This document shows positions 64 to 62,907 of a stretch of DNA of 64,000 nt, piece by piece. Location: contig BDDD01000082.1 in NCBI GenBank assembly GCA_001972305.1, forward strand, positions 620,001 to 684,000. The letters are read 5' to 3'. The notes under the pieces were generated by a model. It searched no databases. It saw only the letters and a program-made list of their open reading frames with translations, and was not told the origin of the DNA. The stretch comes from Cephalotus follicularis (Eukaryota; Streptophyta; Magnoliopsida; Oxalidales; Cephalotaceae). Every line of letters begins with the position of its first letter. Positions within the stretch are counted from its first letter, which is position 1. A program made the position numbers and the translations under genes.

Positions 64-240
64 ACACATCGACCTCGTTTCAAAGACGTCGATGTCTTTG
101 AAACATGTCGATCTCCTTTGTAACATATCGATGATATTTAAAAGGCAGCATTTTTCTTGTTCTTAAGATCGATGCTTTTCGTTTTTTTTAAAAGCGTCGA
201 CGCCTTTGTAATAACATCGACATCTTTTACCTCTCTTCGA
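64..240. repeat. TCGA-palindrome cluster, SIRE element 1 untranslated region
   Basis: At least seven short TCGA-centred sites lie here, upstream of the extra reading frame. They include caaagacgtcgatgtctttg at 81-100, which is palindromic except for one central base, and an aaagcgtcgacgcc site near 191. The matching region of SIRE element 2 (62425-62700) holds a similar cluster, so it is a conserved property of this untranslated segment. Function unknown. Confidence 0.75.
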
Positions 241-471
241 TTCTTTTTCATAAAAACGTCAACTCCCTTCTCCACTCTCACCTTACCCTCACCCTGAACA
301 TCTATTAAAAAAAATTTCTCTAAATTTTTTTTAAAAAAAATTTCGTTCTAATCTCTCTTAAAACATCTACTCTGTCATCACTCGTCCTCAAACTCGTCCG
401 TTCTTCTTCCAATTCTGGTTGTCTTCTTTTTTTCTGTTCTTGTTTGTTGTGCATCCCAACTGTTTGACAAA

Positions 472-1759
472 ATGCCTAGAACAAAAACTACTGGCTTAAA
501 GAAGGCTTCTAGGTCTTCCCAACCTAAGAAAATTGGCTGTAAAAGGAAGCTTAACATTCGGGAACCTTCTCCCGATCCCGCTCTTCAATCGGATTCCGAA
601 ATCTGAAGCAGAAACTCCTCTCCACAATGTTGCATTTGTTGACAAAAGGGTAATGGGTGGTAGGAACATAGATTTATCCTTTTGTTCCAATGAATTTTCT
701 TTTGTTTCTTGGCTATAAGAATTACATCTCATTCCTTTAGTTCAAATTCAGGACATATTTTATGTCAAACTTGTAAAAGAATTTTGCATGAACTTAAGGA
801 TTGTTTCTAATCCTCATGAAGATTTTGCCCTCTCTTCAACTGTTAAAGGTCAAAGAATCTTTTTAAATAATAGGATTCTTGCATCAATTCTTCATATTCC
901 TCACAACGACATTTATACCTTCGAATACAAGAAATGGCCGGAAGTCGAAGGTTTTCACCCAAACAACATTTTATCAATTCTATAACCTAATGATCCAAAC
1001 ATTCATCCCAACATGGCACTTTGCACAAACAATATCTCGGTTGATCATCGTCTTCTACATCACCTCATTGTTCATCAATTTCTTCCTACCGGTGGTGGTT
1101 ATGCAAAACTCACAATGATGCAAGCATTCCTAATGTGGTGCATCATTTCAAAAATCGAGTTTTGTTATCCACTGCTTATGCTCCACACGATGGTGCGTGC
1201 CTTTTCCCAGAAGAAATCCGTCCTTCCCTTTGGGTGCATCTTAACCAAAATCTTCCGATACCATGTGGTACGTCTTGAAGGGGAGATTGGAACTAAGCTG
1301 AAGAAGGAAGATACCTACAACAAAAGCACCTTGAATCGCATGGGATGGAAGAAACAAGATAGCAATTGGACTTATTGTCCAAAAAGTGACAAAGGCCAGA
1401 AAATTGAGAGAGAAGAACATGAAGAGATCCCTCCTTGGGAAGCACAAGAAGCACCACCTGCTCAAACTCATGACTCTTCATCTACCAGTGAGTATGATCG
1501 GATGATGGAATTCATGAGCGCTCGATTTGATGCATTGTATACTAGGTTCGACTCGATGGAAGCATTAATTGAAGGAAAATTCCACCAAGTAAATTCGCGC
1601 CTCAAAAATTTGGAAAAGGATCACATGACTATTCGATCCGACTTTGAGACAATAGAAGACACAATCTACTGTGACTTACATGTCAGCAAAAGACGTCTCA
1701 AGCGCTTGGAACGAAAGCTTGCTGCATCCAAGACAATCGACATATGCGAAGATACCTAG
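472..1759 (+). pseudogene. SIRE extra (env-position) ORF, decayed copy A
   Basis: The reading frame starts at ATG 472 after a short 5' untranslated stretch and ends at the TAG at 1757-1759. The N-terminus is basic and then acidic (PDPALQSDSE). The middle part contains KRVMGGRNIDL and KWPEVEGFHPNN, which resembles the conserved 'putative plant transposon protein' domain often found in plant retrotransposons. The C-terminal part (about 1495-1750) is rich in heptad-like charged and hydrophobic residues, likely a coiled coil. Compared with the second copy at 62908, one extra A near 598-600 shifts the frame and TAA codons at 716-718 and 983-985 interrupt it. The second copy has its own, different lesions. 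The role in the element is unknown; the position matches the env-like ORF of SIRE elements. Confidence 0.75.
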
Positions 1760-2284: not shown

Positions 2285-2401
2285 TTGTTGACGGTTTAGT
2301 CTCAATCCTAGTTTTGATGATAACATATTTGCATCTAAGAAAGTTCACATAATGTGCAAGATGTTAGAAAGATTCACAAAAGGCAAAAGACAGTTGTAAA
2401 G

Positions 2402-2660
2402 AAAAGATATCGATCCCTTTTCATGAAGACATCGACGTCTTTGAGCTACAAAAGTTACAGGCCACTTTTGAAGAAAGACATCGATACCTTTTTAAGAAGA
2501 CATCGATGTCTTTGAGCTACCAAAGTTACAGGCCGCTTTTGAAGAAAGACATCGATCCCTTTGCAAGAAGACATCGACGTCTTTAGTGCACAAAAGTTAC
2601 AGGCCGATTTTGAATAAAGGCATCGATCCTTGTATGTGAAGACATCGATGTCCAACAAAA
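2402..2660 (+). repeat. Tandem repeat of about 71 bp carrying paired TCGA motifs
   Basis: A unit of about 71 bp is repeated roughly 3.5 times. Each unit has an acatcgatccctttt site, then about 20 bases further an agacatcgacgtcttt palindrome, then a linker containing aaagttacaggcc. Further unpaired motifs continue to about 2935. The array lies in the U3 part of the LTR, upstream of the TATA box, where enhancer repeats of retrotransposons normally sit. Confidence 0.8.
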
Positions 2661-3026
2661 GACATCGATCCCTTTCCTTCGACATCGATGTGTTTGAAGA
2701 CTCAACTGCAAAATCCAGAAAAGACATCGATCCTTCAAGAAGACATCGATGCGATGCTCATAACCTCAAATGCTTGGATACATTCCCAGAAAAGACATCG
2801 ACGCCTAGAGAAGACATCGACGTCTTTTCAAATTGTTTGACCCGAGAATTAAGGAATGACTAGTTAACCCACTTGCAACGGCTAGTAACAGACAAAGACA
2901 TCGACTCCTTTCAAAAGACATCGACGTCTTTATCTCAGCATGCACAAAAATAGAGTTGCATCAACACATCATTTTTATATCTTAAATTCCCAAGATTTAT
3001 GCAACGGCTACAAAGACATTTTTGTC

Positions 3027-3034
3027 TATATAAA
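3027..3034 (+). promoter_or_regulatory. TATA box in SIRE element 1 LTR
   Basis: TATATAAA lies about 740 bp into the LTR, downstream of the motif array and upstream of the U5 hairpin, a normal place for the U3 promoter. No transcription data are available. Confidence 0.5.
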
Positions 3035-3370
3035 TGAAGTTCCAAAACCTTTAAAAAACAGAAGAGAGACAACAATCAAGAAATAAAGAATTCAATCATT
3101 CTAGTAAATCTCTTTCCACAAAGCTCAAGTGCTCTATCCTTTGAGTTCTTCCTTGTGATTCCAATTGTGTTCTGTATTATAAGCTAGATCAAACCTATTG
3201 AGAGGTTATTTTGTAAACACATTTACAAACACTTGAAAAAGAGGTGAATCCTCTAAGGTCTTGAGGTCAAGGTCTTGTGATTGAGTTCAATCACCAAAGT
3301 TGTAAGGTGTAACGAATTGCTACCGTAATCAATTCGAGATAGTGGAAACTCAAGGAGCTCCCTTGGGAAA

Positions 3371-3402
3371 AGTGGACGTAGGCAAGAGTTAGCCGAACCA
3401 CT
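3371..3402 (+). other. Conserved U5 hairpin, SIRE element 1
   Basis: Nested inverted repeats AGTGG...CCACT and GGC...GCC enclose a variable loop. The same structure occurs at 30799-30831 and 34295-34327 in another copia LTR with a different loop, so the stems are kept while the loop changes. Confidence 0.6.
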
Positions 3403-3503
3403 CTAAAACAGAGAATTCTTCTTTCCTTACACTCCTTACTTTAAAGTTTTTATTTTTTGTTATTTACGTCAATATTCAATTCACCCTCCTCTTATATATT
3501 GCA

Positions 3504-5085
3504 AGAGTTGCTTTTTCAAGGATAAACACATATCCTGAAACTGACTTGTGATTATCCGGATCACTGTTGATACTGGAAACGGTATAGCCCTCCAGTCTCA
3601 ACCCATTATCTCTTCCATATATCAAGAAGATATCCCTAGTCCATCTAAGGTACTTCAGGATCCCCTTGACAGCTTCCCAATGCTTCTCACCAAGATTGGA
3701 CTGAAATCAGCTTGCCATCCCAAAGGCATGCGTGACATCAGGCCTAGTACATAGCATGTCATACATGATAGAACCGACTACAAAAGCATAAGGCAGTCGG
3801 CTCATGCATGTCCTCTCCTCAGGTGTCTGCGGAGCCATCCGCTTAGAGAGGTGAATTCCCTATCCGAGTGGCAGTAGGCCACGTTTAGAATTCTCCATAC
3901 TAAAATGTTTCAGCACTTTGCTGATGTACTGGCTTTGGGAGAGCCAAAGCAACCTATGAGATCTATCTTTAAAGATATTTACACCTAGTATATAGGAAGC
4001 CTCTCCCAAATCCTTCATGGAAAAGTTCTTGGCTAACCATACTTTCATGGGCTATAACATGCCTACATCATTCCAAATGAGTAGAATTTCATCCATGTAC
4101 AGTACCAAGAAAGTGGAGTTATCCTGTTTTTGGTAGACACATGACTCATCTACATTTTTGATGAAGCTGAAAGAGTTAACGACCTCATCAAAGCAGATGT
4201 TCCAGCTACGAGATGCTTGCTTCAGGCCATAGTTAGACTTTTGGAGTTTTCACACCTTATATGGATACTCATCGGATGTAAACCCCTCGGGTTAGGACAT
4301 ATAAATGTCCTCCTCAAGACGCCCATTCAAAAAGGCAGTCTTGACATCCATTTTCCAAATCTCATAATCATAATGAGCGACAATAACAAGCAAAATCTGG
4401 ATGGATATAAGCATTGCAACTTGCAAGAAAGTTTCGATGTAGTCGACACCATGTCTTTGCCTATACCCTTTCATGACCAGTCTCGCTTTATAAGTCTCAA
4501 TCTTTCCATCAACGCCAATCTTCTTCTTGAAGATCCACTTGTACCAAATAAGCACTATGCCTTCGGGTGCTTCGACCAAGTTCCACACTTGGTTGAAGTA
4601 AATGGAATCCATATTTGATTGCATCGTTCCTAGCCATGCCTCTAAATAAGTGCCTTGCACTGCTTCTTGATAACTGGTAGGCTCATCAGCTTCGATGATG
4701 TTGGGATTCATCAATACCGTCAATGAGATAACCATATCTCTCAGGTGCTGTCGAAATCCTGCATTATGTCCTCACTATAGCAGTGCCTAACTGAGATCTA
4801 ACCTCAAGTTGAGGTATAACCCCAACTGTGTCTCTAGAGGTGCCAACCTCTAATTCCTAATCATCCTGTGGTTCTTCACCCTGTGGTAACTCCTGGAGTT
4901 CCACCCCACTCCCACTACTTCCTTGGAGAAGGAATTCCCTCCCTTGGAATACAGCATTTCGCAAAATAATAACATTTTGCTCGCTGGGAAGGTAGAATCG
5001 GTATCCTTTGGGTTCTTTTAGATACCCCACAAATTGGTAGTGGTTCGACCGTGCCTTCAACCTTAGCTTTTCTTTTTTTGCTTTT
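3504..5085 (-). pseudogene. pol: Ty1/copia pol relic (integrase end, RT, RNase H start)
   Basis: Read on the minus strand from 5060, the order is the integrase C-terminal end (VGYLKEPKGYRFYLPS, NAVFQGREFLLQG), a linker, reverse transcriptase (YKWIFKKKIGVDGK, KARLVMKGYRQ, WKMDVKTAFLNG, then a decayed LKQASRSW and YMDEILL region), and the connection to RNase H ending in SVSGYVFILEKATLA near 3504. The polymerase motif normally YVDD reads YMDE here, and many stops and frameshifts are present. It is a dead relic. The SIRE element 1 LTR interrupts it inside RNase H; the remaining part should lie left of the window. On the right it ends abruptly against the Tat element around 5085. Confidence 0.8.
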
Positions 5086-18159: not shown

Positions 18160-18300
18160 TTAAGCTTCGACGCCTTAGCGTTGTTAATTCATCGTTTCTT
18201 TAGAGGTGTAACACGTCGACGCTTATGCATTTGACATCGACGCTTTTGCATTAAAATGTTAAGCGTCGACGCTTTGGAATTACCGTCGACGCTTTAACAG
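18160..18300. repeat. TCGA-palindrome cluster in solo LTR 1
   Basis: Five sites lie here, including the exact 14-bp palindrome aagcgtcgacgctt at 18261-18274. A second cluster in the same LTR at 18885-19045 has at least six more sites. Confidence 0.8.
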
Positions 18301-18884: not shown

Positions 18885-19045
18885 TGTCCTAACCATCGAC
18901 GCTTTTATTTGAGCGTCGACGCTTATGTAGTGTTTTGTAACATTTTTCTTCGATGCTTTAAACGTAAATTGTCATGCTTCTTGTCGACGCTTTCTCTTGC
19001 ACTTTGTCTTAAGCGTCGACGCCATGCGTTAAGCGTCGATGCTTT
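18885..19045. repeat. Second TCGA-palindrome cluster in solo LTR 1
   Basis: Sites of the gcgtcgacgctt class lie at short intervals. The last one (aagcgtcgatgctttt) is cut on its right arm by insertion of the Tekay element at 19046. Confidence 0.75.
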
Positions 19046-19213
19046 TGTAATGCCCGGTATTTTCCTGAATGTAATATTTCAATTTATGATGTAATCATAA
19101 ACTTGAGTTAATAAGAATGTTGAAATTTCAATTCAAAAGGGGTCCCTAAATCCAAAATATTGGTTAAGGAAGGAAGTGTGTATGTCAAAGCTTGAAATGG
19201 CACTGTCTTGGGT

Positions 19214-19370
19214 CAAAGACATCGACGTCTTTAGAAAAACGTCGACGCCTTTGGGGGTGAGGTACACGTGGATGCACGAGCATACACGTCGACCTTAAGA
19301 GAAGGCATCGACACCTTCTTACGAAAAGAGAAAAAACATCGAAGTCTAAGGAAAGACGTCGACGCCTTTG
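19214..19370. repeat. TCGA-palindrome cluster A in Tekay 1 5' LTR
   Basis: It includes caaagacatcgacgtctttag and aaaacgtcgacgcctttg about 20 bp apart, then weaker sites. The same cluster is at 26755-26910 in the 3' LTR and at 51236-51390 in Tekay element 2. Confidence 0.8.
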
Positions 19371-20114
19371 TAAGAATAGCCATCACGTTCTTCGATGGCA
19401 GAGTAACATGCAGTGAGGGAACCTTGGGGGCTTTACAGACGCTCTAACAAGTGCATTGTGAAGTGATAATCACAATGGTGTGTTGCCTGGCATGTTCCGA
19501 AACATGCCCTCACATGGAACATGCAAGGGATTACCACCCTCACATGCAACCTGTAATGAAAGAATGGTTAAAGAAAACCAAAAGAAATATGCAGAAACCT
19601 GGAAAGTGGGAGAGAGCACGAGGGGGCCTGTTAAATGGCAGAAGAAAGAGGTTTGGAAGAAGCCATATGCATAAGAATAACCCTCCCCACTCATCTCTCT
19701 CGTTCTAAAACACCAGAAGAAAGAAAAGAAAGAAAAACAGTGAGTGTGAGAGCAACCATTGTTGAGTTGCTTGGAGCTGGGGATTGGAGCTCGTGGGTAG
19801 CAGTTGCTGAGGGAACCTTGGAGCTGCTGGTAGCCAGAACTTGGGGACTTAAAGAGGTGGACTTTCCAGTTCCTAACTTGGAACAATAAGGTAGGGGAAA
19901 GTGATGAATTTATACATGCATTTTGGGTTTTAAGTTAATGAATAACATGATGAATTGCATGTTAATTGTGGTTCTGGACTTGTTATGGTGTTACTGTGAT
20001 ACACTGAGTTAATCTTGCATGTGCGATTACATGAATATGTGAGTTGATTGTGTAAAGAATGGATCTAATAATAGCCTGGCATGTTAAAATCGTGGAAAAC
20101 ACGTTCTGGGTTGT

Positions 20115-20545
20115 AAAGACATCGACGTCTATGAAAAGACGTCGACGCCTTCGTGTGAAAACGTGAATGACATCGATGCTTTTATAAAGACATCGACTCC
20201 TTTTCTGGGAAATTGTAGAACTGTAATGTTCATTTTGGATGGCCATTTAGCCACTTGGAACCACCTGTATGGTTTCCGATTGATGTTCTGGTTATGTTCC
20301 CATTAACTAGTAGCATGTCTTTCACGTTTAGGGAGTGGGATTCGTTTATGTGAGGGATTAAAAGGTTGGATGTTACCCTCTAGAATCAAGACTCGCGAAC
20401 TGATACTCTATGGTATGAAAAAGACATCGACGTCTTTGTAAAGGCATCGACGTCTTTGGTCTAAAAACGCCTGGGAATACTTGTACATAGGATCGACGCC
20501 TTAGGCTAAAGGACATCGATGCCTTAAGGAATGACATCGATGCAT
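20115..20545. repeat. TCGA-palindrome cluster B in Tekay 1 5' LTR
   Basis: Two groups (20115-20205 and 20421-20545) contain about nine sites of the acatcgacgtctt and gtcgacgcctt types. The first is kept in the 3' LTR (27656-27745), the second is deleted there. Both are absent from Tekay element 2. Confidence 0.8.
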
Positions 20546-21038
20546 TTTCCCCTGGACAGTAGGATTTTGCTCGAATGGGACCCGCTAGGCCCGAAACGAC
20601 TCTAGAAACGAACCTAGTTGCATTCTGAGCATATGTTTGCATTCTTACTGTGATTTGCATTAAGGTTGCTTTCCTGAGAGTGTTATCCATTTTGAAAAGC
20701 TTGCATGATCATTATGATCATTTGTGTACAAAAATGTATATTTGTCAACATATGAAATTATATATTTTTGAGATGAATGGGGAAGTATTTCCGATAACAT
20801 GTTTTAAGGGTTTGATCATGAAACCAAATGTAATTTGCAAAAATGTATAATTTATGAATGTATATATTTTTGAAATGTTTGGGGAAGTATTTCCAAAGAC
20901 AGAGAAATGTATTGTTTTAAGTTTTATAACTTATTACAACTTGTGAACGGAATAATATATTTTAAACAAATATATTTGATCAAGTAATTATATGTAATTG
21001 CTTGACCTGTGCTGTGAAATACTTGTGCTTGTGGATTA

Positions 21039-21180
21039 TTGGCCATCGTGCTAATAACTTGTTGATTATTAGCCACCGTGCTAATAACTTGTTGATTATT
21101 AGCCACCGTGCTAATAACTTGTTGATTACTTAGCCATTGTGCTAGTAACTTGCTGTTGGTTTAGCCATCGTGCTAAACAA
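21039..21180 (+). repeat. 30-bp tandem repeat in Tekay 5' LTR
   Basis: About five copies of a unit containing ttgttgattattagccaccg lie in tandem; the last copies are more diverged. Tekay element 2 has about three copies (52410-52502). The 3' LTR of Tekay 1 lost the array by deletion. Confidence 0.8.
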
Positions 21181-21887
21181 CTTACTGAGGACTTGCTCCA
21201 AGACCGGATGGAGTAAGAGTGCATGACGTTGGGGCCAGGAGGTGGCGACGGTCATGACGATTGGCTTGTCTGGTTCCTTTTTGGGAACATATTTACGGCT
21301 TGTGTTGATATAACTTATGAGTTATACCCGTACTGTGAGCATGCATATATTTTTATATGTACATACGGAGGTATTTTTAATATGAAAATTACATGGCATG
21401 GCTCATCATAATGCATTCATTCATGACACTCATTATCATATGACTCGAACTGTATTTGTGGGTTTATTCACTTAGCCGAGTGAGGACAAAGGCTAACCCC
21501 TACTATAACAGATTGATGGAGTGGACATGATATGGAGCATGCACGGAGACTTAAAGAGAATATTTGTTATTTCTCTTATTTATGTATTTTGGTTATGGAA
21601 CATTGATCATGTTATTCGGATTTTTGTAATAAAGGTTATTTTGTTATCTCGTTCTGTATTATTATTTCACGCTCCGTTTTGGGCGATCGACGGTTGTGTT
21701 TGGATTTTGGGCATCACGTAGTCTGGGATGCATGATGCGTGTTCATATTCGGCTCATTTATGTCATTGCTTCCGCTATTGAAGGTTTTTTATTTATTGGT
21801 AATTTTGCATGAGCTGGATTATTTCATGTTGATTGTCTTACCACTTTATATGTTGTCTATGTGTTGGAAAATGGGGGCGTGACAACA

Positions 21888-30310: not shown

Positions 30311-30428
30311 CTTTGGACGGCTGATACAATATCAGAACTTGTTTTAAAGAGCCAACTTTTGTGCAACAACTTCCAAGACTTCTCCAACGGCTCTATTTCT
30401 TCACCAACGGCTAGAATCTAAATGAAGC

Positions 30429-36447: not shown

Positions 36448-36600
36448 AGATAGGTCGATACGGAGTGTGACTGTGATGACAAATCGTATGAGTAGTCATG
36501 TTAGGTCTATATGGAGTATGACAGCGGTGACAAATCGTATGAGTAGTCATGCTAGGTCAATACGAAGTGTGTTCGACGTGGCAAACCGTATGAGTAGACA
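36448..36600. repeat. 51-bp tandem repeat in Athila LTR
   Basis: Three units contain caaatcgtatgagtagtcatg or a variant. The right LTR has the same array at about 56555-56705. Confidence 0.75.
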
Positions 36601-37007
36601 CCATTGATCGCGTTAAAAACCATTCAATCAACAACGTTCTTATTCACCAACAAATTGTTTGTGGATTTTAATCAAACAGACAAAGTGTGTGTGAAGGCAA
36701 AAAAATTGAAGAACAAATTAAAGGTTCAAGGATTTTATTAATGGAGTTGAATCAATACAATCTAATGGTTTGTTCTAACCCTAAAAACCTTGAAAAGTTA
36801 TCTACAAAACATTGTAATAAAACTAAAAACTAAAGAAGAAGAAGAAGGACTCTGGCAAAGCTTACACATTGTTATGGCTGGCCTCACAATGTTTTTATAA
36901 TGTAAAAAATTCATAAAAACGGAAGAAAATCTAACCTAATCGTTTAAGGAAATAATTACAATCTAAATAAAAAATCCAAAACTTTCCATTTTGCTGTTTG
37001 GCATCGT

Positions 37008-37255
37008 AAGCATCGACACTTTTCCTTTGGGAGTCAATGGCTTGTTGCTTGGGCATTGGCGCTTTGATGTTATGACGTAAACTGTTTCCGCGATTTATTT
37101 GTTAAGCGTTGACGGTAATGAGCCAGGCATCGACGCTTAAAGTGTGTAATTCAATTGTTAAACTTCTGTACCAAATCGTTGACGCTTTTATATTAACTGC
37201 TGGCGCTTTGCGTGTAGGCGTCGATGCTCATGTTGAAGGCGTCGACGCTTTGCTC
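37008..37255. repeat. TCGA-palindrome cluster 2, Athila left LTR
   Basis: About eight sites occur, including ggcgtcgacgctttg near 37240 and decayed forms such as gcgttgacgg. The counterpart in the right LTR is at 57120-57365. Confidence 0.7.
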
Positions 37256-37645: not shown

Positions 37646-39802
37646 TGTAATGACCCAAATTTCCATTAAAGAGATTTAATTATGGAAAATGATTGCTAGT
37701 ATGTATTTTGGCAAATAGTTCAAGGGACCCGTAGTATGACCCTACGCTCGGGGGGTTCAGGGGTTTCGCTCTAATTTGGCTAAGTGATGAGAAGGAAAAA
37801 GTGTCTAAAGCGCCGACGGTTTTATTTAAAGAGTCGACGCTTTGGGCAACGGACGACGCTCTAATTTTAAACGCCAACATGTTGAAGTCAAGTGTGTCTG
37901 TTGACCTGGACGAAGACTTAAAGTGGCGATGCTTTGTAAGAAAGCGTCAGCACTTTAGTCAGGATAGAAGTGAAAAACTCAGGTCAAGCCCGTGACCGGC
38001 GACGCTTAGAGAGAAAACGTCGATGCTTTGAGCTATAGACAAAATGCAAAATCTAACTTTTTGGAATTTTGTGAGTGAAAATATTTAATTTTGGACACGT
38101 GGCAGGCCAGGGGAGGATGATATGAGATGTTATCTTGTAATCTAACAGGTGTAAACACTTGGATTGGTTGAATTTAAACACATGGGCTGCTATGAGAGGA
38201 AATTGAGTTGTGTGAGAAGGGGAAAGACTTGCCTCCCAAGTAATCCTTCTATTTAATGGCTAGGAGGGTTGAACTCAGTCATTTTGACTGAGAAAGAAAT
38301 GTTCCTGCTGAGAGTGAAGTGGAGAATTCGTGGAGAGCAAAAGAGAAAGAAATTCTAAAGCAATGTAAGGAAATTCTATACCCATTCTCTACAAAGCATC
38401 CCCTGTTTTGTTTTCGATTATGCAGCAGATTGTTCTATTGATATCTTGTTCAATTATTGATGAAATTTGGAATGGTTGGATGTTCTGGAAACGTTAGGAT
38501 GTCCTCTTTAACTATTAGGCATTGCATGTTTCAAGATTCTATCGTTTTCTTGATGGAAATTCATGTTTTAAATTGCTGTTTGGGTACTGTTTTATTCATG
38601 GATTATAAAGCAACTTCTTTAAATCGTATCTTGCTCGTTTCTTGATTAAAAATTTAATGGTTGGATGTTTTGAAAACCTTAAGATGTCCTATTTAACTTT
38701 TATGTTTTATGTACCTCGAAATTCTGTCAAATCCGTGATGAGAATTGATGTTTCATTTTACTGCTCATGCCCTATTTTCATATGGAACCAGCCACATTCA
38801 AAACTTCATAACGGATTCAATTCTCAACTAATTGTTATGATCTTGAGCTTTCTGAATTCGTAAAGATGTCTACTTTAATGTTTATGTTTTAAGTTTTCTC
38901 TGAAAATGCTTATTTCTATATGAATTATCATTTTTAGTAAAGCTATACAAAACTATTTTTATGAACTCATTTGAGTCAATTACTCAAATGAAGAGAAAGG
39001 TTTATGAATTGTGAAAGAGATGTTATGAGATGATTTTTTATGATTGCTTTGAGCTGATCACTCAAAGTAAATGATGAATGAACTACCCTTGGATTGCGAT
39101 CCAAGGGGAATGGAGCGAGATGCTCAATGTTAATGGAGCGAGATGCTCACGGACATGCATGTGATGTAAGGATTGTAGTCGGGGAGTGCACAATGCCCCG
39201 GTGAAGCGATGTAAAGGGTTCATTAAGTTTTTTATGAATTTCATGTTTACGAAATGATCTAGTTATGATATTAACTAGAAAAGTAATATGTTTTATGAAA
39301 TGTTCTAGTTAAATGTGTTGACTAGAAAATTGTTATGATGAAATGTGTTTACTATAAAAACACCTTACTGAGCTATTTTGAGCTCATTCCTTTCAATGTT
39401 GTTTTCAAATAAAATGTTTTCAGGAAATGAATGAATGGAGATTACGAGCTTAGAGGAAGCTCTTAAGAAGGAGTTTTTGTGAAAGAAAGGCTATGCGATG
39501 ATATTTGTATTAATGTTTTGATATGTAATAAGAACAAAGTTTTCCGCTGTATTATATGTTTATGTAGAAGAATGATCCTGTGTAATGTAGACCAACGATA
39601 TGGTTATGACATCTTTATATAAGATGATTATGTGTGAAGTTTGAATTTAAGATTATGTATGATGTTGCAAGACATGAGTTTATGATGTAGTGTACTTTTA
39701 GAAAATAGTACCAAAGGATGTAACGTTTCACACCCAACGTAACGCAACCGATCCTCGGAGTTCACTTTGAGCTATTAGCGAGCTCGGGTCAGGTTCATTA
39801 GA
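37646..39802 (+). mobile_element. Solo LTR 3a
   Basis: It begins TGTAATGACCC at 37646 and ends at 39802, with the perfect duplication cccta at 37641-37645 and 39803-39807. The terminal CA has become GA. No internal region is present, so it is a solo LTR. It contains a TCGA cluster at 37805-38030. The same family lies in the opposite orientation at 40324. Confidence 0.85.
37805..38030. repeat. TCGA-palindrome cluster, solo LTR 3a
   Basis: Six or more sites such as gagtcgacgctttg and aaacgtcgatgctttg, with variants aagcgccgacgg and ggcgacgctta. Confidence 0.75.
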
Positions 39803-40323: not shown

Positions 40324-42475
40324 TGTAACGCCCCAGATCTGAGTCCGCTAAATGCTCAAAGCGAATCTCGAGGAGTCGATGCATTACGTTGGGTGTGAAA
40401 TGATACATTCTTTAGCATTCTTGTCTCATGCTAACATACATCATCTACTCATGCTTTTCTCCATAGACCTATCACATGATCAAATTCATACTATTCAACA
40501 TCTTCCATAACCTTAAATTTAAACCTTAAACATAATCATCTTATATAAAGATGTCATAACCATATCATTGTTATACATTTACACAGGATCATCCTTTATC
40601 ATAACATATAATACATCAGAAAACATTATCTCATTACATATCAAAACATTTATGCGAACATCATTGCATAGTATATTTCCTTTGCAAAGTTTCTTCTTAA
40701 GAGCTCCCTTTAAGGTCATAATCTCCATTTAATCATTTCCTGAAAACATTTTATTTGAAAACAAACATTGAAAGGAATGAGCTCAAAATAGCTCAGTAAG
40801 GTGTTTTTATTGTAAACACATTTCATCATAACCTTTTTCTAGTGAATACAAATAACTAGAACATTTCATAAAACATATCACTTTTCTAATTACAAATTCG
40901 TAACTAGAACATTCATAAACATAGAAGTCATAAAAACCGTAATGAACCCTTTCACACCGCTTCACCGGGGCATTGTGCACTTCCCGATTACTATCCTTAC
41001 ATCACATGCATGTCCGCAAGCACTTTACACTCCATCATAATCCGTTTAGGATTCATTCCTCTTGGATCACAATCCAAGAGTGGTTCATTCATCATTTCAT
41101 AAAACATTTCCTTAATACTTTGAGTGATCAGCTCAAATCATTCATAAACATCATTGTATAACATTTCTTTCATAATTCATAAACATTTCACTTTATTTGA
41201 GTAATTGACTCAAATGGTTTAATAAAACAGCTTTGCATAGCAATTTTAAATCTTGAATTTAATATAGAAATAAGCATTTTCAGAGAAAACTTAAAACATA
41301 AACATTAAATTAGAGATATTTACAAATTCAGAAAGCTTAAGTTCATAAAAATTGGTTGAGAATCGAATCCATTATGAATTTTTTAAAGTGGCTGGTTCCA
41401 TATGAAAAAAGGGGATGGGAAGTAAAATGAAACATTGATTCTCATCAAGAATTTGACAGAATTTTGAGATAAGTAAAACATAACAGTTAAAGTAGACATC
41501 TTGAAGTTTCCAAAACATTAAACCATTAAAAATTTCATCAAGAAACGGGCAAGATATTAATAGAACTATTTGCTGCAACTTTGAATCAAAACAGGGGAAA
41601 CTTTCACAAAAATGTGTATAGAATTACCTTACTTTTCTTCAATCTCCTTCTCTTTTGCTCTCCCACGAATTCTCCACTTCACTCTTAGCAGGAGCACTTT
41701 CCTTCTCAGCCAAAATAACTAAATTCAGGTTCTTAATCCCCATAAATAGGCTAGTTACTTGGGGAGTAAGACTTCTCCCTCCCCCCCTCTCTCATGAGTC
41801 ATCTCTCCAAAATAGCCCATGTGCCTAAATTCAATCCAATCCAATGGTGACACTTATTATAACATCTGATAATATCTCAAATTTTTCTCCCCTAGCCTGC
41901 CACGTGTCCATAATTAATAAAATTTAACCCACAAAAGGGAAAAAAGTCAGATTTGGGCAACCAGTCTGCACAACAAAGCGTCGGCGCTTTTCTGAAAGCG
42001 TCGCCGCTTACGGGTCTCGTACAAGTCAACTGACACAATTGACTTCAAAGAGTCGACGTTTGAATTTAGAGCGTCATCAGTTGCCTCCAAAGCACTGACG
42101 CTTTCTCGTAAGCGTCGTCGGTGTGAGGGGTTTGTCCAATTTACCGTTGCACTGGTTTAATGCTCCGTTAGAAGGGTTACAAGCATCGTCGGTTTACCAC
42201 CAAAGTGTCGACTCTTTACCTGGAACCATCGGCGCTTAAGCCAGAATTTCAGGTCCAAAGCAATAACCAATTTCAGTTTTCTTCCAGGGGCGCTGCCCCC
42301 GCGCCCCTTCCCGCTGTCCGGGTAGTGGAACCCCCCGTCTGCTCACCGGGGAGCGGAACCCCAGAACCCCCCGAGCGTAGGGTCATACTACGGGTCCCTT
42401 GAAATATTTCCCAACTACACAATAGAAATCATCTTTCCATAATTAATTTCTTTAATGGAAATTCAGGTCATTACA
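40324..42475 (-). mobile_element. Solo LTR 3b (inverse orientation)
   Basis: On the plus strand it begins TGTAACGCCCC and ends GGTCATTACA, with the perfect duplication tagaa (40319-40323 and 42476-42480). It is the same family as solo LTR 3a in opposite orientation, 521 bp away. A TCGA cluster lies at 41975-42235. Confidence 0.9.
41975..42235. repeat. TCGA-palindrome cluster, solo LTR 3b
   Basis: About nine sites, many with a changed centre (aaagcgtcggcgctttt, gcgtcgtcggtg), plus gagtcgacgtttg near 42050. Confidence 0.75.
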
Positions 42476-45344: not shown

Positions 45345-45530
45345 TCTGTCGAGCAGAACAGTCGACTGTCAAATTAAACAATCGACTATTAGCCATTGAG
45401 TAGTCGACTGCCACCCTTTGAGTAGTCGACTGGATTCATACCCAGTTTGAGCAGTCGACTGCCTATGCCACACAGTCGACTGCCACCTTTGAGTAGACGA
45501 CTGGACCTTGATACAGTCGACTGGAATTGT
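45345..45530. repeat. CAGTCGACTG palindrome cluster, solo LTR 2
   Basis: Eight sites of the exact or near palindrome cagtcgactg lie about 20-25 bp apart (near 45360, 45382, 45403, 45423, 45451, 45474, 45495 and 45514). The core GTCGAC is shared with the other families, but the arms are different. Confidence 0.85.
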
Positions 45531-51060: not shown

Positions 51061-51064
51061 TGGA

Positions 51065-53200
51065 TGTAACGCCCGGTATTTTCCTGAATGTAATATTTCG
51101 ATTTATGATGTAATCATTAAACTTGATTTAATAAGAATGTTGAGTTTTTGAACTCAAAGGATGCTCACAAACCCTACTTATGACTTTGGAAATGGAATGA
51201 GTGTTAAAAAGCTTGAAACGACGCTGTTTTGGGAGAAAGACATCGACGTCCTTGGAAAGACGTCGACGCCTCTGTGAACTAGGGTATACGTGATTGCACA
51301 GCCGTGCACGTCGACCTTGAGGGAAGGCATCGACACCTTCTTACAAAAGGAGAAAAGACATCGATGTCTAAGGAAAGACATTGACGCCTTTGTAAGAATG
51401 GCCATCACGTTCTTCGCCGGCAGAGTAACATGCAAGGGGGATTTTTATGGGGCTTTTCCAGACGCATTTTCAAGAGCATTATGACGTGTTGGACATGTCG
51501 GTGTATTGCCAGGAATACTAAAACCTGCCCTCACGTGGAACATGCAAGGAATATACAGCGTAACATGCAACCTGCAAAAAGGGAAGAATAGAAAACAAAA
51601 AGAAATGCAGAAAGAAGGAAAGTGGGAGAGATCTCGGGGATGACCTGTTAAATGTCAGCAGAAGGGTGTTTGGGGGAGCCATCTGCATAAGAATATCCCT
51701 CCCCACTTATCTCTCTCGTTTTAAAACACCAGAAGAAAGAAAAGGAGAAAAACCAGTGAGTGTGTGGAAGAGAGAACCACCATTGTTGAGCTTGGAATAA
51801 GCTGGAAGATTGGAGCTCGTGGGTAGCAGTTGCTTAGGAACCTTGGAGTGCTGATAGCCAGAACTTGGGAACTTAAAGAGGTGGACTTTCCAGTTCCTAA
51901 CTTGGAACATAAGGTAGGGGAAAGTGATGGATTTATATATGCATTTTGAGTTCTAAGTTAATGAATAGCATGGTGAATTGCATGTTAATGATTGAATTGA
52001 GATTCTGGACTTGTTGTAGTGTTACTGTGATTTGCATTATGGTTGCTTTCCTGAAAGTGTTAAACCATTTTGAAAAGTTTGCATGATTATTATGATCATT
52101 TGGGTACGAAAATGTATATTTGTCAACATATGAATTTATATATTTTTGAAATGATTGGGGAAGTATTTCCAATGACAGAGAAATGTTTTAAAGGTTCGAT
52201 TATGAAACCAAATGAAATTTGCGCAAATGTATAAATTATGAATGTATATATTTTCGAAATGATTGGGGAAGTATTTCCAAAAACGAGAAAAATGTATTGT
52301 TTTAAGTTTATGACTTATTACAACCTGTGAACAGAAAAGTATATTTTACACAAATATATTTGATCAAGTAATTATATGTAATTGCTTGACCTGTACTGTG
52401 AAATGCTTGTGCTTGTTGATTATTAGCCGCCGTGCTAATAACCTGTTGATTACTTAGCCACTGTGCTAGTAACCTACTGTTGGTTTAGCCGCCATGCTAA
52501 ACAACTTACTGTGACTTGCTCCCGGGGGTGGAGTAAGAGCGCATGACGTTGGGGCCAGGAGGTGGCGACGGTCATGACGATTGGATTGTCTGGTTCCTTT
52601 TTGGGAAGATATTTACTGCTTGTGTTGATATAACTTATGAGTTATACCTGTACTGTGAGCATGCATATATTTTTATACAAAGGTATACTTACTGAAAAAT
52701 TACATGTCATGGCTCATCATTATGCATTCATTCATGATACTCTTTATCTTATGACTTGAACTGCATTTTATGGGTTTATTCACTTAGCTGAGTGAGGACA
52801 AAGGCTAATCCCTACTGTAACAGATTGATGGAGTAGTCTTGATATGGAGTATGCACGGAGACTTAAAGAGAAGGCTTGGATATTCTCTTTTTATAATTGA
52901 GTTGTTGAACATTTATCATGATATGTATTTGGGATTATTTGTAACATGGTTTACATTGTTATCTCGTACTGATGTATTATTTCACGCTCCGTTTTGGGCG
53001 ATCAAAAGTTATGTTGGATTATCGGGCATCACGTAGTATGGGATGCGTGATGTGTTTTTAAATTCGGCTCGTTAAGTTATTGCTTCCGCTATTGAAGTTT
53101 TTTTTTTAATTGTTGGTAATTTTTGTATTAGCTGGATTACTTTTCGTTGATTGCTTTACCACTTATATGTTGTCTATGTTGTGGAAAGACGGGGTGTGAC
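51065..53200 (+). repeat. 3' LTR of Tekay element 2
   Basis: It starts TGTAACGCCCGG and ends GGGGTGTGAC. It lacks a 654-bp segment present in Tekay 1 (between two copies of ttactgtgat at 19991 and 20645), retains a TCGA cluster at 51236-51390, and has about three units of the 30-bp tandem repeat (52410-52502). Confidence 0.85.
51236..51390. repeat. TCGA-palindrome cluster, Tekay 2 LTR
   Basis: It includes aaagacatcgacgtccttgg and gaaagacgtcgacgcctctg, then weaker sites (acatcgatgtcta, acattgacgcc). Same position as in Tekay element 1. Confidence 0.8.
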
Positions 53201-53593
53201 TGCCATGTTAGGACCCCTATTAGAACTATGTTATGTCTTTCGGTTTATGACTTAGAATTATGTTTAAGCTTTTGGTTTATGTTTAACTTTCCAAGATTAT
53301 GTTTAAGTTTTCATATTATGAATAAAGTTCTAGACCATGTTTTTAGATTTGGATTAAAGTTGCTAGACTATTATTAGATTATATATATATTGACCATCAC
53401 GCAATTTGAATTAAATATAAGTTAATAATTTGATAGTGAGAATAAAGGTGAACCTTGAATTATAGTTAAATAAGAATACATGCTAAGTTAATATCTTGTT
53501 AAAAAGAATAAAATTGAGCCATGTTATAAGATAGATTATGTTTAGTCTCGGATTAGGAACCGTAACGACTCCTGCCGATCCGGGGGTGTTACA
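53201..53593 (+). other. Right end of solo LTR 2
   Basis: This is non-coding LTR sequence between Tekay element 2 and the terminal GGGGGTGTTACA. Confidence 0.7.
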
Positions 53594-56252: not shown

Positions 56253-57493
56253 ATAACAAAGGCACTGAAAGCGTCGATGTTTAACGCAAAGCATCGACGT
56301 GAATAACAAATAAACTAACGAAAGTGCACTAACAATGTCGTGAGCGTCGACGCTCTGTCACACAGCATCGACATTTACGCGAGCAGACTCGAATTTAAGC
56401 TATTTTACCAGAAACCTAAAGCATGCAAATCTATTTATCAACAAGGCAAAATAAAAACTAGAGAAAAGAAGTAATATTAAATTATGTGTAGGGCATCATA
56501 GATTATATTGAATAACTCTCTTACTTTAATGATCAAACCTTGGTAACCAACGGCAGCTAGGTTGATACGGAGTGTGACTATGATGACAAATCGTAGGAGT
56601 AGTCATACTAGGTCTATACAGAGTGTGGCAGCGACGACAAATTGTATGAGTAGTCATGCCAGGTCTATACAGAGTGTGTTCGGCATGACAAACCGTATGA
56701 GTATACTCCATTGACCGCGTTAAAAACTATTCATTCAAAAATTTTCTTATTCACCGATAAAGTGTTTGTGGATTTTAATCAGACAGACGAAGTGTGTGTG
56801 AAGGCAGAAAAATTGAACAACAAATCAAAGGTTCAAGGATTATTTTAATGGAGTTGAATCAATATAATCTAATGGATTGTTCTAACCCTAAAAACCTTGA
56901 AACATGATCTAGAGAACATTGCAATAAAACTAAAAACTAAAGAAGAAGAAGAAGAAGAAGAGGGCGGCTGGCAAAGCTTACACACTGTTATGGTCGGCCT
57001 CACAATGTTTTTATACTGTAAAACATTCATAAAAACAGAAGAAAATCTAACCTAATCGTTTAAGGAAATAATTACAATCTTAATAAAAAATCCAAAACTT
57101 TCAATCTTGCTATCTGGCATCGTAAGCGTTGACGCTTTTCCTTTGGGAGTCGACGGTTTGTTGCTTGGGCATTGATGCTTTGATGTTATGACGTGAACTC
57201 TTTCCGCACTTTAGTTGGCAAGCGTCGACTATAATGAGCAAGGCGTCGATGCTTAAAGTGTGTAATTCAGTTGCTAAACATATGTACCAAAGCGTTAATG
57301 CTTTTAAATTAACAGCTGGCGTTTTACGTCTATGCGTGGACGCTCATGTTGAAGCCGTCGTCGCTTTGTTCTATTTTCCACAGAAATTTTTCTTCAAGCT
57401 TTGATCTTCTTGTCTTCATTTCTTACAGATTTGACTAGTATTTATGCATTTTGATCCTTTTGTCCTTGTACCTGAAAATCAAATAAAGAAAAC
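56253..57493 (-). repeat. Athila LTR, right copy (5' LTR), truncated
   Basis: It matches 36145-37390 of the left LTR in the same orientation. Both ends are lost: on the left against the reversed LTR fragment, on the right at 57493 where the SIRE LTR begins. TCGA clusters lie at 56265-56375 and 57120-57365, and the 51-bp tandem repeat at 56555-56705. Confidence 0.75.
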
Positions 57494-57710
57494 TGTTGAC
57501 GATTCAGTCCTAATCCTTGTTTTGATGATAACATATTTGCATTTGACAAGTTTACTTGATGTGCAAGAAATTACAAAGTTCAATACCAAGGAAAACACTC
57601 ATCTGTAGAGAAGACATCGACCTTCAAGAAATAACATCGACGTCCATACAGAAAGACATCGATCCCTTTCAAGAAGACATCGACGTCTTTAAGTTACAAG
57701 ATCAAATTAC
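57494..57710 (+). repeat. 5' LTR fragment of SIRE element 2
   Basis: TGTTGACGATTCAG matches the LTR start at 2286. Only about 217 bp remain, including TCGA motifs at 57615-57695 of the acatcgacgtc class, before gag coding begins. Confidence 0.75.
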
Positions 57711-59277: not shown

Positions 59278-62200
59278 ATTCTCTTGTTTTGTAGGTGTCA
59301 CCAAAGAGAAATCGTTGGTACCTCGATAGTGGATGTTCCAAGCACATGACAGGTAATAAACGCCTATTTATAACTTGGAAACCAAAAGACGGAGGAAACG
59401 TAACCTTTGGAGACAATACAAAAGGACAAATCGTTGGAACCGGCTCCATAGGTAATAAAGATATTTCTATTTCTAATGTATTGCATGTAAAAGGACTCAA
59501 ACACAATCACTTGAGCATAAGTCAATTATGTGAAAAGAATTGTAGAGTTATTTTCGAAAATACTTCATGTAGAGTTGTAGACAACAACTATAACGCTACT
59601 AAGTTTATTGGACAAAGAGAAGGCAATGTTTATGTTAATAATTTAAATGACCTTCAAAATCAAAATGTAAAATGCCTTGTCTCCTTAAATGAAGATAGTT
59701 GGACATGGCATAGAAGGCTTGGACATGTGAGTATGAGAACAGTTGCAAAAATTTTGAAACATGACCTAGTCAAAGGTCTTCCAAAATTGAGTTTTCAAAA
59801 AGATAAATTGTGTGATGCTTGCCAACAAGGTAAACAAATAAGAGAAAGTTTTAAACCTACAAACATTGTTGCAACTTCTAGGCCACTCGAACTACTCCAT
59901 ATGGACCTTTTTGGACCAATAAACACAAGAAGCTTAGGAGGTAAATCTTATGCCTGTGTTATTGTTGATGACTACACTAGGTACACATGGGTTTGTTTTT
60001 TAGCACACAAAAGTGAAACTTTTACAATCTTTGCCAATTTTTGTAAAATTGTTCAAAAGGAAAAAGGACTTTCAATTTTGAAAATTAGAAGTGACCATGG
60101 CAAAGAATTCGAAAATAATATTTTTGATGATTATTGCATTAAAAATGGTTTTAAACATGAATTTTCAACACCTAGGACTCCTCAACAAAATGGAGTTGTT
60201 GAGAGGAGAAATAGAACATTAGAAGAAATGACAAGAACAATGCTTTGCGAAAATGATTTACCAAAGTATTTTTGGGCCGAAGCCACAAACACCGCATGTT
60301 ATATTTTGAATAGAACATCAATAAGGCCTATTCTCAAAAAGACTCCATACAAGTTATGGAAGGAGAGAAAGCCTAACATTAGTTACTTTCGTGCCTTCAG
60401 ATGTAAATGCTTCATACACAACAATGGAAAAGATCAACTTGGTAAGTTTGACTCCAAAGCGAATGAAGGTATATTTCTTGGATACTCCCTCACTAGTAGA
60501 GCTTATAGATGTTTCAATAAACGTACTATACTTGTAGAAGAATCTATGCATATTGTATTTGATGAGCTACATGATTCTACTTCACATGTGCATGATAGTA
60601 TCGATTTTCATGAATCATCGGAGGACCTAGATGTAGAAGCTAAGGATAGTTATCAAAAAGAACTTATAGATAAGACTTAGAAGGTAGTTAGAGACCACCC
60701 ACATGAAGCTATCATTGGTGACATTCAACAAGGTATTAGAACTAGGTCTAGAGCAAACACTTGTAACTATGTTGCATTCCTTTCACACCTAGAACCCAAG
60801 AACTTTGTAGAAGCGGAAAAAGATGAAAATTGGATTGTAGATATGCAAGAAGAGCTAAACCAATTTGAAAGAAACAAAGTTTGGTTTTTAGTACCTAGAC
60901 CAAATGACCATTCGGTTATAGGAACTAAATGGGTTTTTAGAAACAAAATGGATGATCAAGGGATCATTATTAGAAACAAGGCTAGACTAGTTGCCCAAGG
61001 CTATTCACAAGAAGAAGGAATAGACTATGATGAGACATATGCACCGGTTGCTAGACTAGAATCCATTCGTTTGTTGCTTGCATTTGCTTGTTTTAATAAT
61101 TTTAAGTTATATCAAATGGATGTGAAAAGTGCCTTTTTAAATGGTTTTATAAAAGAAGAGGTATATGTTGAACAACCTCAAGGTTTTGAGGATCCTCACT
61201 TTCCAAATCACGTTTTTAAATTGAAGAAAGCTTTATATGGACTCAAACAAGCCCCTCGTGCTTGGTATGAGAGGTTGACAAAGTTTTTAATTGAAAATGA
61301 TTTTAAACGAGGTAATGTTGATATTACTCTTTTTACAAAATCTAAAGGTAATGACTTACTTATAGTTCAAATATATGTTGATGATATTATCTTTCGATCT
61401 ACTAATGACTCTTTATGCAAGGAATTTTCAAATACCATGAAATCTGAATTTGAAATGAGTCTAATGGGAGAGCTGAACTACTTTCTCGGACTACAAGTCA
61501 CACAAAACAAAGATGGGATCTTCATCAACCAAATAAAATATACAAAGGATATTCTCAAGAAGTTTGGGATGGAGAATGCTAAAACAAGCAAGACTCCTAT
61601 GAGCACCTTTACAAAGCTTGACAAGGATGAACAAGGTAAACATGTCGATCAAAAGCTTTATAGAAGTATGATAGGATCTTTATTGTACTTAACCGCAAGT
61701 AGACCCAATATTTTGTTTAGTGTGTGCTTGTGTGCCCGTTTTCAATCAAATCCAAAAGAATCCCATTTATTTGCTATGAAACGCATTTTTAAATATCTTG
61801 CATACACACCTATATTAGGCTTATGGTATTCCTGAGATTCTAATTTTGATTTACATTCTTACTCGGATGCCAACTTTGGTGGTTATAAAGTTGACCGCAA
61901 GAGCACTAGTGGCTCATGCCAATACCTAGGGAGCATGCTTGTCTCTTGGTTTATCAAGAAGCAAAATTCAGTAGCTTTATCCACCACTGAAGCTGAATAT
62001 ATTGTAGTAGGTAGTTGTTGTGCGCAAATTCTTTGGCAAAAGCAACAATTGGTTGATTATGGTATATGTGTTAAGGATGTATCTATTAAATGTGATAATA
62101 CTAGTAGTATTTGCCTAGCTAAGAACCCAGTTCATCATTCTAGGATAAAACACATTGACATTAGATATCACTTCTTAAGAGAACATGTAGAAAGTGGTGA

Positions 62201-62318
62201 CATTGTTTTAGAGTATATTCCCACCGAAAAACAAGTGGCGGATATTTTCACCAAACCCTTAGATGAAAATTCTTTTTCTAAGTTTACAAGAGAATTAGGT
62301 TTATGTGAGCTTGAATGA
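59278..62318 (+). pseudogene. pol: SIRE element 2 pol (protease, integrase, RT, RNase H)
   Basis: In order: protease (WYLDSGCSKHMTG near 59320), pre-integrase HHCC (WHRRLGHVS...CDACQQGKQ near 59710-59830), the integrase core with its three acidic residues (HMDLFGPI, IRSDHGKEFEN, PQQNGVVERRNRTL), reverse transcriptase (KARLVAQGYSQEEGIDYDET, KMDVKSAFLNG-type motif, YVDDIIF near 61375) and RNase H (SDANFGGYKVDRKSTSG, ALSTTEAEYI). All in one frame, broken only by a TAG at 60678-60680 and a TGA at 61833-61835. It ends at 62318 (LCELE). The frame differs from gag, as in SIRE elements where gag and pol are separated. Confidence 0.9.
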
Positions 62319-62907
62319 TGTTTATTATGTCTGAATGATTGTTTTAATTGAATGCATATTTGATGTGATGATTGATTTTTGGTTATTGTTTTGTTTTTGC
62401 TTGATTTTCTACTCTGTTTACAAAAACGTCGACTTCTTTTTTGGAAAATTCTATCCTTTACAAAAACACGTCCACTTCTTTTCTGCAAAAATTTATGACT
62501 TATGAAAATCACGTCGATCTCTTTTGAAAAACATCGATCTCTTTGTGTTTCCCTGAAACACGTCAACTTCGTTTCAAACGTGTCAATGCTTTTTCAAAAC
62601 ACATCGTTTTCTGGCTTATTTTTAAAGAACGCGTCGACTTCTTTTTAATCACGTCGACGTCTTTCACTTAGAAATCGACTTCTTCATAAAAACGTCGACC
62701 TTATGTTCATTTCTCACCTTACCCCCATTTCTGGACATTTCGAAAAAAATTTCTACTCTTTTTTTTTCTTTCAAAAATCATTCTATTTGATCGTAAACAA
62801 TCCTCTGAATCTTTCTCCAACTTCAAAATCTTTTTTCATCTCCTCAAATCCATCTGTTTTTATAACTCTCTGTGTTTATCCTTTGTGCTCACCAACTGTT
62901 TGTAAAA
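62319..62907 (+). other. Untranslated region between pol and extra ORF, with TCGA motifs
   Basis: It is non-coding. About twelve TCGA-type sites (acgtcgactt, cgtcgatctc, acgtcgacgtctttc) lie at 62425-62700. The matching region of SIRE element 1 is 1-471. It could hold the promoter or splice site for the extra frame; none can be proven. Confidence 0.7.

Follow-up and report, generated by a model that had tools for sequence, protein, structure and literature searches.

Why should long terminal repeat (LTR) retrotransposons of two superfamilies, nested into one another in one plant genome, carry clusters of the same short palindrome? The question is raised by a 64-kb stretch of the Cephalotus follicularis genome (1.577 Gb), positions 620,001 to 684,000 of contig BDDD01000082.1, which is called the window here; all coordinates are window positions. 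An earlier note on this DNA had described palindromes with a GTCGAC or close core in the LTRs or untranslated regions of copia and gypsy elements. As detailed below, the palindromes are long symmetric sites, they form regularly spaced arrays in LTRs and untranslated regions, the same sites are shared across the two superfamilies, and they are in excess throughout the genome. We propose, with a probability of about one half, that the arrays are cis-regulatory DNA for a dimeric binder, and that copia and gypsy elements may share them by using this binder in parallel.

The window was scanned for 16-bp palindromes with at least 7 of 8 pairs, no motif being given, and the counts were compared with those of 100 block-wise dinucleotide shuffles. 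There are 55 such palindromes of all kinds versus 25.0 in the shuffles (maximum 40), and 25 of them are centred on TCGA, versus 0.87 (maximum 3). The next centres, TATA and ATAT, reach 7 each (shuffle maxima 7 and 9), and beyond TCGA no centre lies above its shuffle maximum. GTCGAC itself occurs 45 times versus 5.60 expected (standard deviation 2.34, maximum 12 in 100 shuffles). The clusters are therefore real, although the expectation of one GTCGAC per 4 kb, given in the earlier note, was too generous for this base composition; the shuffles yield about one per 11 kb.

As judged from Pfam domain scans, element ends and target-site duplications (TSDs), the latter two taken directly from the sequence, the window holds plant LTR elements inserted into one another. 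Pfam scans of 20 open reading frames (ORFs) returned LTR-element domains, two other matches below cutoff (PF20167 and PF07989), or nothing. Sirevirus B carries copia gag, integrase and reverse transcriptase at 57.5–61.8 kb, with matches to RVT_2 and copia gag. The gypsy elements T1 (22.2–26.5 kb) and T2 (46.9–50.3 kb) contain gag, protease, reverse transcriptase, RNase H and integrase. PF20167 matches the env-like region of Sirevirus A at 986–1756 with 37.9 bits, which is under Pfam's own cutoff of 45. Sirevirus A and one gag-only element, in which no pol was found, both possess the Sirevirus polypurine tract (PPT) AGGGGGAG, followed by AT and then TG; the PPT and copia pol never stand together in one element of the window, Sirevirus A being cut by the window edge. 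Solo LTR H1 (18030–34774, TSD AAATG) encloses T1 and the gag-only element, and solo LTR X (44039–53593, TSD TTTAA) encloses T2. The lineage names Tekay, Athila and Tat are those of the earlier note; where we speak of Athila-region pieces or of Tat, the name is presumed. With this proviso, clusters were found where that note had placed them: in Sirevirus A, Sirevirus B, the gag-only element, T1, T2, the Athila-region pieces and three solo-LTR families, which we take as H1, X and S.

The unit of the arrays is one 18-bp site, AAAGAC-RTCGAY-GTCTTT (class I). Class II is a 16-bp form, AAAGC-GTCGAC-GCTTT, and class III is GCA-GTCGAC-TGC. Read outward from the dyad, the class I half-site is GAYGTCTTT and occurs in Sirevirus A, Sirevirus B, T1 and T2; the class II half-site is GACGCTTT, which occurs, often decayed, in H1, the Athila-region pieces, the gag-only element and S, the cores of the S copies being largely decayed; the class III half-site, GACTG, belongs to solo LTR X. 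In a set of 222 sites from 40 arrays of the window and of a genome sample described below, picked by RTCGAY and spacing alone and excluding the two arrays of the T1 3′ LTR, base composition is informative through position 9, counted from the dyad, and flat beyond; the site length is therefore 18 bp. The core named in the earlier note lies within a longer site that has three arm classes. One exact 18-mer, AAAGACATCGACGTCTTT, is found both in the Sirevirus A LTR (2914) and in T1 (19215, 20420 and 26755). The arms vary among the classes yet remain complementary. Most deviations from the consensus are one-sided: 103 one-sided and 15 two-sided in class I (11.3 two-sided expected by chance), 123 and 11 in class II (16.2 expected). 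GTCGAC also agrees with RYCGAC, a CBF site.

Neighbouring sites are typically 20–21 bp apart, about two helical turns, a rule that goes beyond the earlier note. Among 97 neighbour spacings of at most 110 bp in the window (T1 and the gag-only element contributed without their 3′ LTR copies), 56 are of 19–22 bp and none is shorter, compared to 16.9 under random placement (maximum 29 in 5000); the 97 are not all independent, because related copies and a 71-bp tandem repeat of Sirevirus A are included. The genome sample shows the same peak when the arms are ignored: the autocorrelation of its 285 RTCGAY gives 58 pairs at 19–22 bp versus 3 at 23–26 bp, with additional rises near 31, 41–44 and 50–53 bp. 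Any of 11 other palindromic cores gives at most 9 pairs at 19–22 bp in the 20 sample stretches.

The sharing between superfamilies was followed with two matrices. The first, built solely from 14 Sirevirus A LTR sites, matches the window 68 times versus 1.6 in shuffles. Sixteen matches lie in its own LTR, and 27 lie in the three LTRs of the gypsy T elements (13, 9 and 5); Sirevirus B has 4 in its LTR and 7 in its linker, the Sirevirus A linker has 6, and another 6 are scattered over H1, the Athila-region pieces and S. The internal regions of T1 and T2 have none and that of Sirevirus B has one. Thus, a matrix trained on copia finds gypsy LTRs, which bears out the claim that two superfamilies share the clusters in LTRs or untranslated regions. 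The second matrix, for which 7 sites of the gag-only 5′ LTR were the sole training set, matches 63 times versus 1.7 in shuffles. The two gag-only LTRs themselves hold 16 of these matches; H1 has 7, the Athila-region pieces have 10 and 8, the S copies 6 and 7 and the T1 LTRs 4 and 3, and the Sirevirus A linker and an inverted repeat at 12.8–17.3 kb have one each. For class II, sharing across superfamilies is the weaker case, because H1 and S are without coding sequence and the Athila-region pieces are not tied to any. The first matrix has no match in the inverted repeat and one in the 9.3-kb stretch of copia relic and Tat (3531–12800). The reported absence of clusters from the relic, Tat and the inverted repeat holds insofar as each matrix has 0 or 1 match there; for the first two it says little, since no LTR of either was identified in the window.

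One could suppose that the array arose once, or a few times, and then spread from element to element through template switching, gene conversion or nesting, so that the arrays may still be regulatory and the sharing is descent of the array itself. Without masking, up to 152 columns of the Sirevirus A and T1 arrays can be aligned, at about 70% identity, so array DNA may have been transferred; in addition, nesting juxtaposes arrays, as with T1 at the edge of an H1 array, and T1 has a segment with two arrays that is lacking in T2. However, once the sites are masked, no copia–gypsy homology is left among the window families compared and no flank crosses between the superfamilies; only H1 with X, and the gag-only element with Sirevirus A at the LTR starts, still align. 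One homologous block is therefore rejected outside the arrays, as the earlier note had held; within them the test has low power, because little sequence remains after masking. The 42 arrays of window and sample split into 16, 12 or 7 flank groups at flanks of 150, 250 or 500 bp, the larger flanks merging groups because nested neighbours, such as H1 and T1, share DNA. Moreover, the arrays align in both orientations and their spacings differ, as would be expected of arrays of one motif. We consider transfer a serious but less probable origin of the sharing than parallel use.

The rest of the genome was sampled in 20 stretches of 10 kb from 20 other contigs, hand-picked blind to content; three of them contain N bases (5343, 379 and 25). 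With 20 shuffles as control, TCGA-centred 16-bp palindromes number 31 versus 2.9 (maximum 7) and occur in 10 of the 20 stretches. ATAT (92 versus 9.3) and TATA (85 versus 8.3) are also raised, probably through AT repeats, and CATG reaches 10 against a shuffle maximum of 9. Joined to TCGA, the arms of classes I, II and III are found 57, 96 and 5 times, whereas on seven cores that do not share two letters with TCGA the same arms give 0–1, 3–11 and 0–1; four cores sharing two letters score higher (16–18 for class I and 18–32 for class II) because mismatches are allowed. There are 33 clusters of at least three RTCGAY versus 0.5 in shuffles (maximum 3 in 20), and 25 clusters, from 12 of the 20 stretches, contain a 19–22 bp spacing, versus none in shuffles. 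At most one site was found in six stretches (L019, L022–L024, L035 and L038), and L030 has only two isolated weak ones. Genome-wide, with reversed patterns as control, exact sites number 51,413 versus 187 for class I, 3,552 versus 5 for class II and 8,918 versus 21 for class III (GGCAGTCGACTGCC). Transposable elements being multi-copy, these counts are inflated and not independent, which is the one point in favour of chance, composition or simple repeats; the shuffled, reversed-pattern and other-core controls are nevertheless all far lower, and we reject that explanation as having practically no probability. The excess over chance thus extends to the whole genome.

Several sample stretches could be tied to elements. 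In L021 and L028, class II arrays lie just 3′ of the primer-binding site (PBS) of one Ty1/copia element with RVT_2, integrase core and GAG-pre-integrase domains (Pfam). Its reverse transcriptase shares 36 to 40% identity with that of the window Sirevirus, whereas database relatives of the Sirevirus enzyme share at least 60% in all but four of the 120 matches listed; from this we infer that L021 and L028 belong to a different copia lineage. L031–L033 contain class I arrays and gypsy coding sequence mostly 85–91% identical to T1 (one short gag piece of L032, 53%), and L034 contains gypsy coding sequence 72–86% identical to T1 with weak class II sites. Arrays are also present in L036, similar to the gag-only LTR (67–72%), and in L037, similar to the Sirevirus linker (71%). 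In L025 (1560–1890), a class III array stands right after copia integrase coding sequence (a weak rve match) and seemingly interrupts it, the downstream coding having been judged by eye. In a virus collection, exact sites occur in 7 and 3 stretches, one place each, which was taken as chance, and no relative of the Sirevirus reverse transcriptase was found there.

What might such arrays do? A DNA-binding dimer is favoured because the palindromic half-sites are of fixed length, the spacing is 19–22 bp and the deviations are mostly one-sided. In each 16–18 bp site, one dimer would contact two half-sites, which read GAY-GTC-TTT or GAC-GCTTT from the dyad outward, and with a spacing of about two turns adjacent dimers would line up along the same face of the helix. 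The putative binder is probably a host transcription factor: one factor, or a small family of paralogues with differing arm preferences, would activate LTR transcription rather than repress it, and copia and gypsy elements would have come to use it in parallel rather than by exchange of arrays. As in an enhancer array, symmetric sites recur at regular helical spacing; past the first spacing the periodicity is modest. Sirevirus A and the gag-only element have a TATA-like sequence downstream of the array; the array of the L021/L028 copia family directly follows the PBS, a place compatible with a position-tolerant enhancer. A wider version, in which a single factor or small family of the plant would read RTCGAY dyads, spaced by about two turns and with three interchangeable arm types, on most LTR retrotransposon lineages, both copia and gypsy, and would turn much of the LTR-element population on or off together, is more tentative, and we rather doubt it.

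Several observations weigh against cis-regulatory arrays for a dimer. Past the 19–22 bp peak, periodicity is modest (p = 0.009 in the sample and 0.08 in the window), and periodic power at 11 bp exceeds that at 10.5 bp in both. Stronger figures came from counting dependent pairs; when each array counts a spacing only once, the 10.5-bp periodicity beyond the first peak comes out as modest. No TATA-like sequence was found downstream of the arrays of Sirevirus B, S_a, X, T1 and H1 in the stretches searched, the one searched in the Sirevirus B LTR being short. Between the LTRs of Sirevirus A and B, site columns are 88% identical versus 69% elsewhere (shift null 0.005), which speaks for the regulatory reading. 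Site conservation is not significant, however, between T1 and T2 (0.25 and 0.18), between the pre-env arrays (0.066) or between the S copies (0.48); the Athila-region copies show the reverse, 82% in sites versus 89% (0.98), and LTR pairs of single insertions show no difference between sites and elsewhere. General conservation of the sites is thus rejected, the Sirevirus LTR pair alone being significant. Within sites, the arms pair 731 times versus 702.9 (standard deviation 10.6), which is matched by 0.5% of 1000 within-array shuffles; mixed site quality would give such an excess, and so would a weak RNA constraint. Lastly, the RNA folds of all four arrays tested are more stable than those of shuffles (z = −6.7, −5.1, −3.8 and −7.0).

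The last two points suit a function in RNA, where each palindrome would fold into a stem whose loop is self-complementary and serve in dimerisation or packaging, or would yield double-stranded RNA. The same holds for the arms, which differ among classes with complementarity kept, and for the L021/L028 array, which lies in the leader after the PBS. Against it, stable folds are expected from any array of palindromes, and double changes are without clear excess among the mostly one-sided deviations. The pairing excess is not raised when G-U is allowed (862 versus 840.8, reached by 1.1% of shuffles, compared to 731 versus 702.9), and Sirevirus A and B repeatedly contain sites whose right half, GATCCCTTT, breaks the pairing. 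Hairpins would not predict a 20–21 bp spacing either. An RNA function is therefore given little weight. Among the roles offered in the earlier note, a dimeric DNA site fits best, by the 18-bp dyad, the one-sided deviations and the spacing, and the RNA hairpin fits worse.

Slightly less improbable, yet still unlikely, is that a host factor on the arrays nucleates silencing by recruiting RNA polymerase IV and RNA-directed DNA methylation, in the manner of the Arabidopsis REM factors with GDE1. For the REM–GDE1 system, strictly spaced repeats of factor sites are described at siren loci (PMC12270911), and maize Sirevirus palindromes are reportedly hotspots of small RNAs (PMC5311732). However, the sites are retained, not lost, between the Sirevirus A and B LTRs, and in the LTR pairs of T1 and the gag-only element deamination-type differences affect 0 of 37 site CpGs versus 5 of 63 elsewhere, which is not significant (p = 0.15); neither CpG protection nor hypermutability of the sites was significant in any of seven comparisons (0/7). 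Unlike the RTCGAY dyads 19–22 bp apart found here, among which the REM motif was not searched for, that motif, TTTTGCTTAT, is reported as a direct repeat, spaced by 1 nt, that leads to small interfering RNA production (PMC12270911).

Another way in which a protein could act on the arrays is anti-silencing by one encoded in the elements themselves, like VANC of the VANDAL elements, which are DNA transposons. Short VANC motif arrays are reported in non-coding parts, where the arrays lie here too, and the VANC6 motif is also present in the unrelated element AT9TSD1 (PMC5735166). Different from the window sites, those arrays consist of same-orientation YAGTATTAY repeats with no dyad, and their binder is element-encoded (PMC5735166). 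No VANC-like gene was seen among the Pfam matches of the 20 ORFs, no search aimed at VANC having been made. We think this explanation improbable, more so than silencing or RNA.

The claim of the earlier note that no named plant LTR element is of this kind does not stand. Palindromic repeated motifs (RM boxes) were described in 13 Sireviruses and called Sirevirus-specific (PMC2829016). Their place is the upper part of the LTR, ahead of the TATA box, and in elements that have env they usually recur ahead of that gene; two of the 13 are TCGA-centred (Vitis, CGGTCGACCG; Tnd-1, ACAATCGATTGT), and 12, Tnd-1 being without it, show a CGG-CCG signature; the same source gives the PPT AGGGGGAG followed by AT and TG as a Sirevirus mark (PMC2829016). 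The window resembles these boxes in its dyads with at least 8 copies per element (16 matches in the Sirevirus A LTR and 8 before env; 8 in the gag-only 5′ LTR), in the Sirevirus A array before TATATAA and in the pre-env arrays. Sirevirus B has arrays in both RM positions, with no TATA-like sequence in the short LTR stretch searched. The PPT-AT-TG mark (Sirevirus A and the gag-only element) and copia pol (Sirevirus B) are both present, in separate elements. Unlike the RM boxes as described there, the half-sites of our arrays, GAYGTCTTT or GACGCTTT, are without CGG-CCG arms, they are spaced by 20–21 bp, and they occur in gypsy T1 and T2 and, as it appears, in other copia elements (L021 and L028). 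The Sirevirus arrays of the window are of the published RM-box kind minus the CGG-CCG arms. In maize, a Copia palindrome, CACCGGACNNNGTCCGGTG, is also the top motif in Helitrons; this is likewise one palindrome across unrelated transposable elements of one plant, reported for Copia and Helitron, different from the copia and gypsy of our arrays (PMC10760457). A literature search of titles and abstract openings, mostly not covering subscription papers, found no report of a palindrome array common to copia and gypsy LTRs, and the exact sites, searched as text, gave no retrotransposon paper by title among the matches listed. As far as these searches go, three points are new: one site type occurs both in gypsy elements and, as inferred above, in a further copia lineage; a single core carries three classes of arms; and the spacing follows a rule.

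Table 1. Arrays and LTRs of the window
Feature	Position	Strand	Remarks
Class I array before env-like region, Sirevirus A	62..246		8 TCGA sites, spacings 20, 19, 20, 41, 28, 20, 20
3′ LTR of Sirevirus A	2286..3530 (right end approximate)	+	PPT AGGGGGAG 2276–2283, AT, TGTTGACGG from 2286; TATATAA 3027
Class I array in Sirevirus A LTR	2403..2931		16 matrix matches, upstream of TATA-like sequence; contains the 71-bp tandem repeat
Class II array in solo LTR H1	18161..18296
Second class II array of H1	18889..19045		T1 inserted at array end, TSD GCTTT
5′ LTR of T1, gypsy	19046..21884	+	PBS TGGTATCAGAGC follows
Class I array 1 of T1	19215..19369
Class I array 2 of T1	20115..20203		spacings 20, 31, 20
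Class I array 3 of T1	20420..20547		absent in T1 3′ LTR
3′ LTR of T1	26586..28513
Array 1 in T1 3′ LTR	26755..26909
Array 2 in T1 3′ LTR	27655..27743
Class II array, 5′ LTR of gag-only Sirevirus-like element	30051..30314		LTR from 29938, TSD GCAGG; TATATAT 30429
Copy of this class II array, gag-only 3′ LTR	33399..33662		PPT AGGGGGAG, AT, TG at 33286
Class II sites, Athila-region piece 2	36120..37251		sub-arrays 36120–36260 and 37007–37251; element name from the earlier note
Degenerate class II array, LTR-like copy S_a	37807..38029
Degenerate class II array, solo LTR S_b	41975..42238		LTR ~40324–42475, minus strand, TSD TAGAA
Class III array, solo LTR X	45357..45526		CAGTCGACTG type
3′ LTR of T2	51065..53203
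Class I array, T2 3′ LTR	51236..51391
Class II sites, Athila-region piece 1	56268..57367		two sub-arrays
Class I array, shortened 5′ LTR of Sirevirus B	57611..57690		LTR from 57494
Class I array before env-like region, Sirevirus B	62422..62705

The history of the single elements can be read in part from the window. As judged from the divergence of their LTRs at 1.3e-8 substitutions per site and year, T1 was inserted about 0.9 million years ago and the gag-only element about 1.6 million years ago, so both insertions are fairly recent and were made with the arrays already present. The insertion point of T1 (19036–19046; 28514) is at the edge of an H1 array, and its duplication, GCTTT, falls within a site; palindrome-biased insertion is described as weak in one report (PMC6911290). 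The T1 5′ LTR segment 20010–20637, which holds two arrays and is absent from T2, is flanked by the 10-bp repeat TTACTGTGAT, which is single in T2; it would be a module either gained by T1 or lost by T2. Of the T2 5′ LTR (46079–46408), only the last ~320 bp are kept, 98% identical to the 3′ LTR, and the remainder is missing beside solo LTR X. The gag-only 3′ LTR is broken at 33709–34149 by sequence resembling an S LTR end (79% to 39358–39793), a mosaic or a nested remnant. In Sirevirus B, the 5′ LTR is shortened (57494–57760), gag coding follows soon after the array, and no PBS was seen between them by eye. The inverted repeat (12862–17295) is 4.4 kb in length with 89% identity and without arrays; two of its ORFs scanned gave no Pfam domain, and it is probably what the earlier note called Mutator-like.

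Plant LTR elements are usually thought to carry family-specific control regions. A common site and spacing rule in copia and gypsy would mean either that they captured one host pathway in parallel or that control modules are freely exchanged, and either reading makes the role of the Sirevirus palindromes testable via the protein that binds the arrays. Our observations suggest a single DNA-binding system that widely differing elements exploit, or by which they are recognised; if true, this would provide a handle on the co-regulation of much of the repeats of a large genome.

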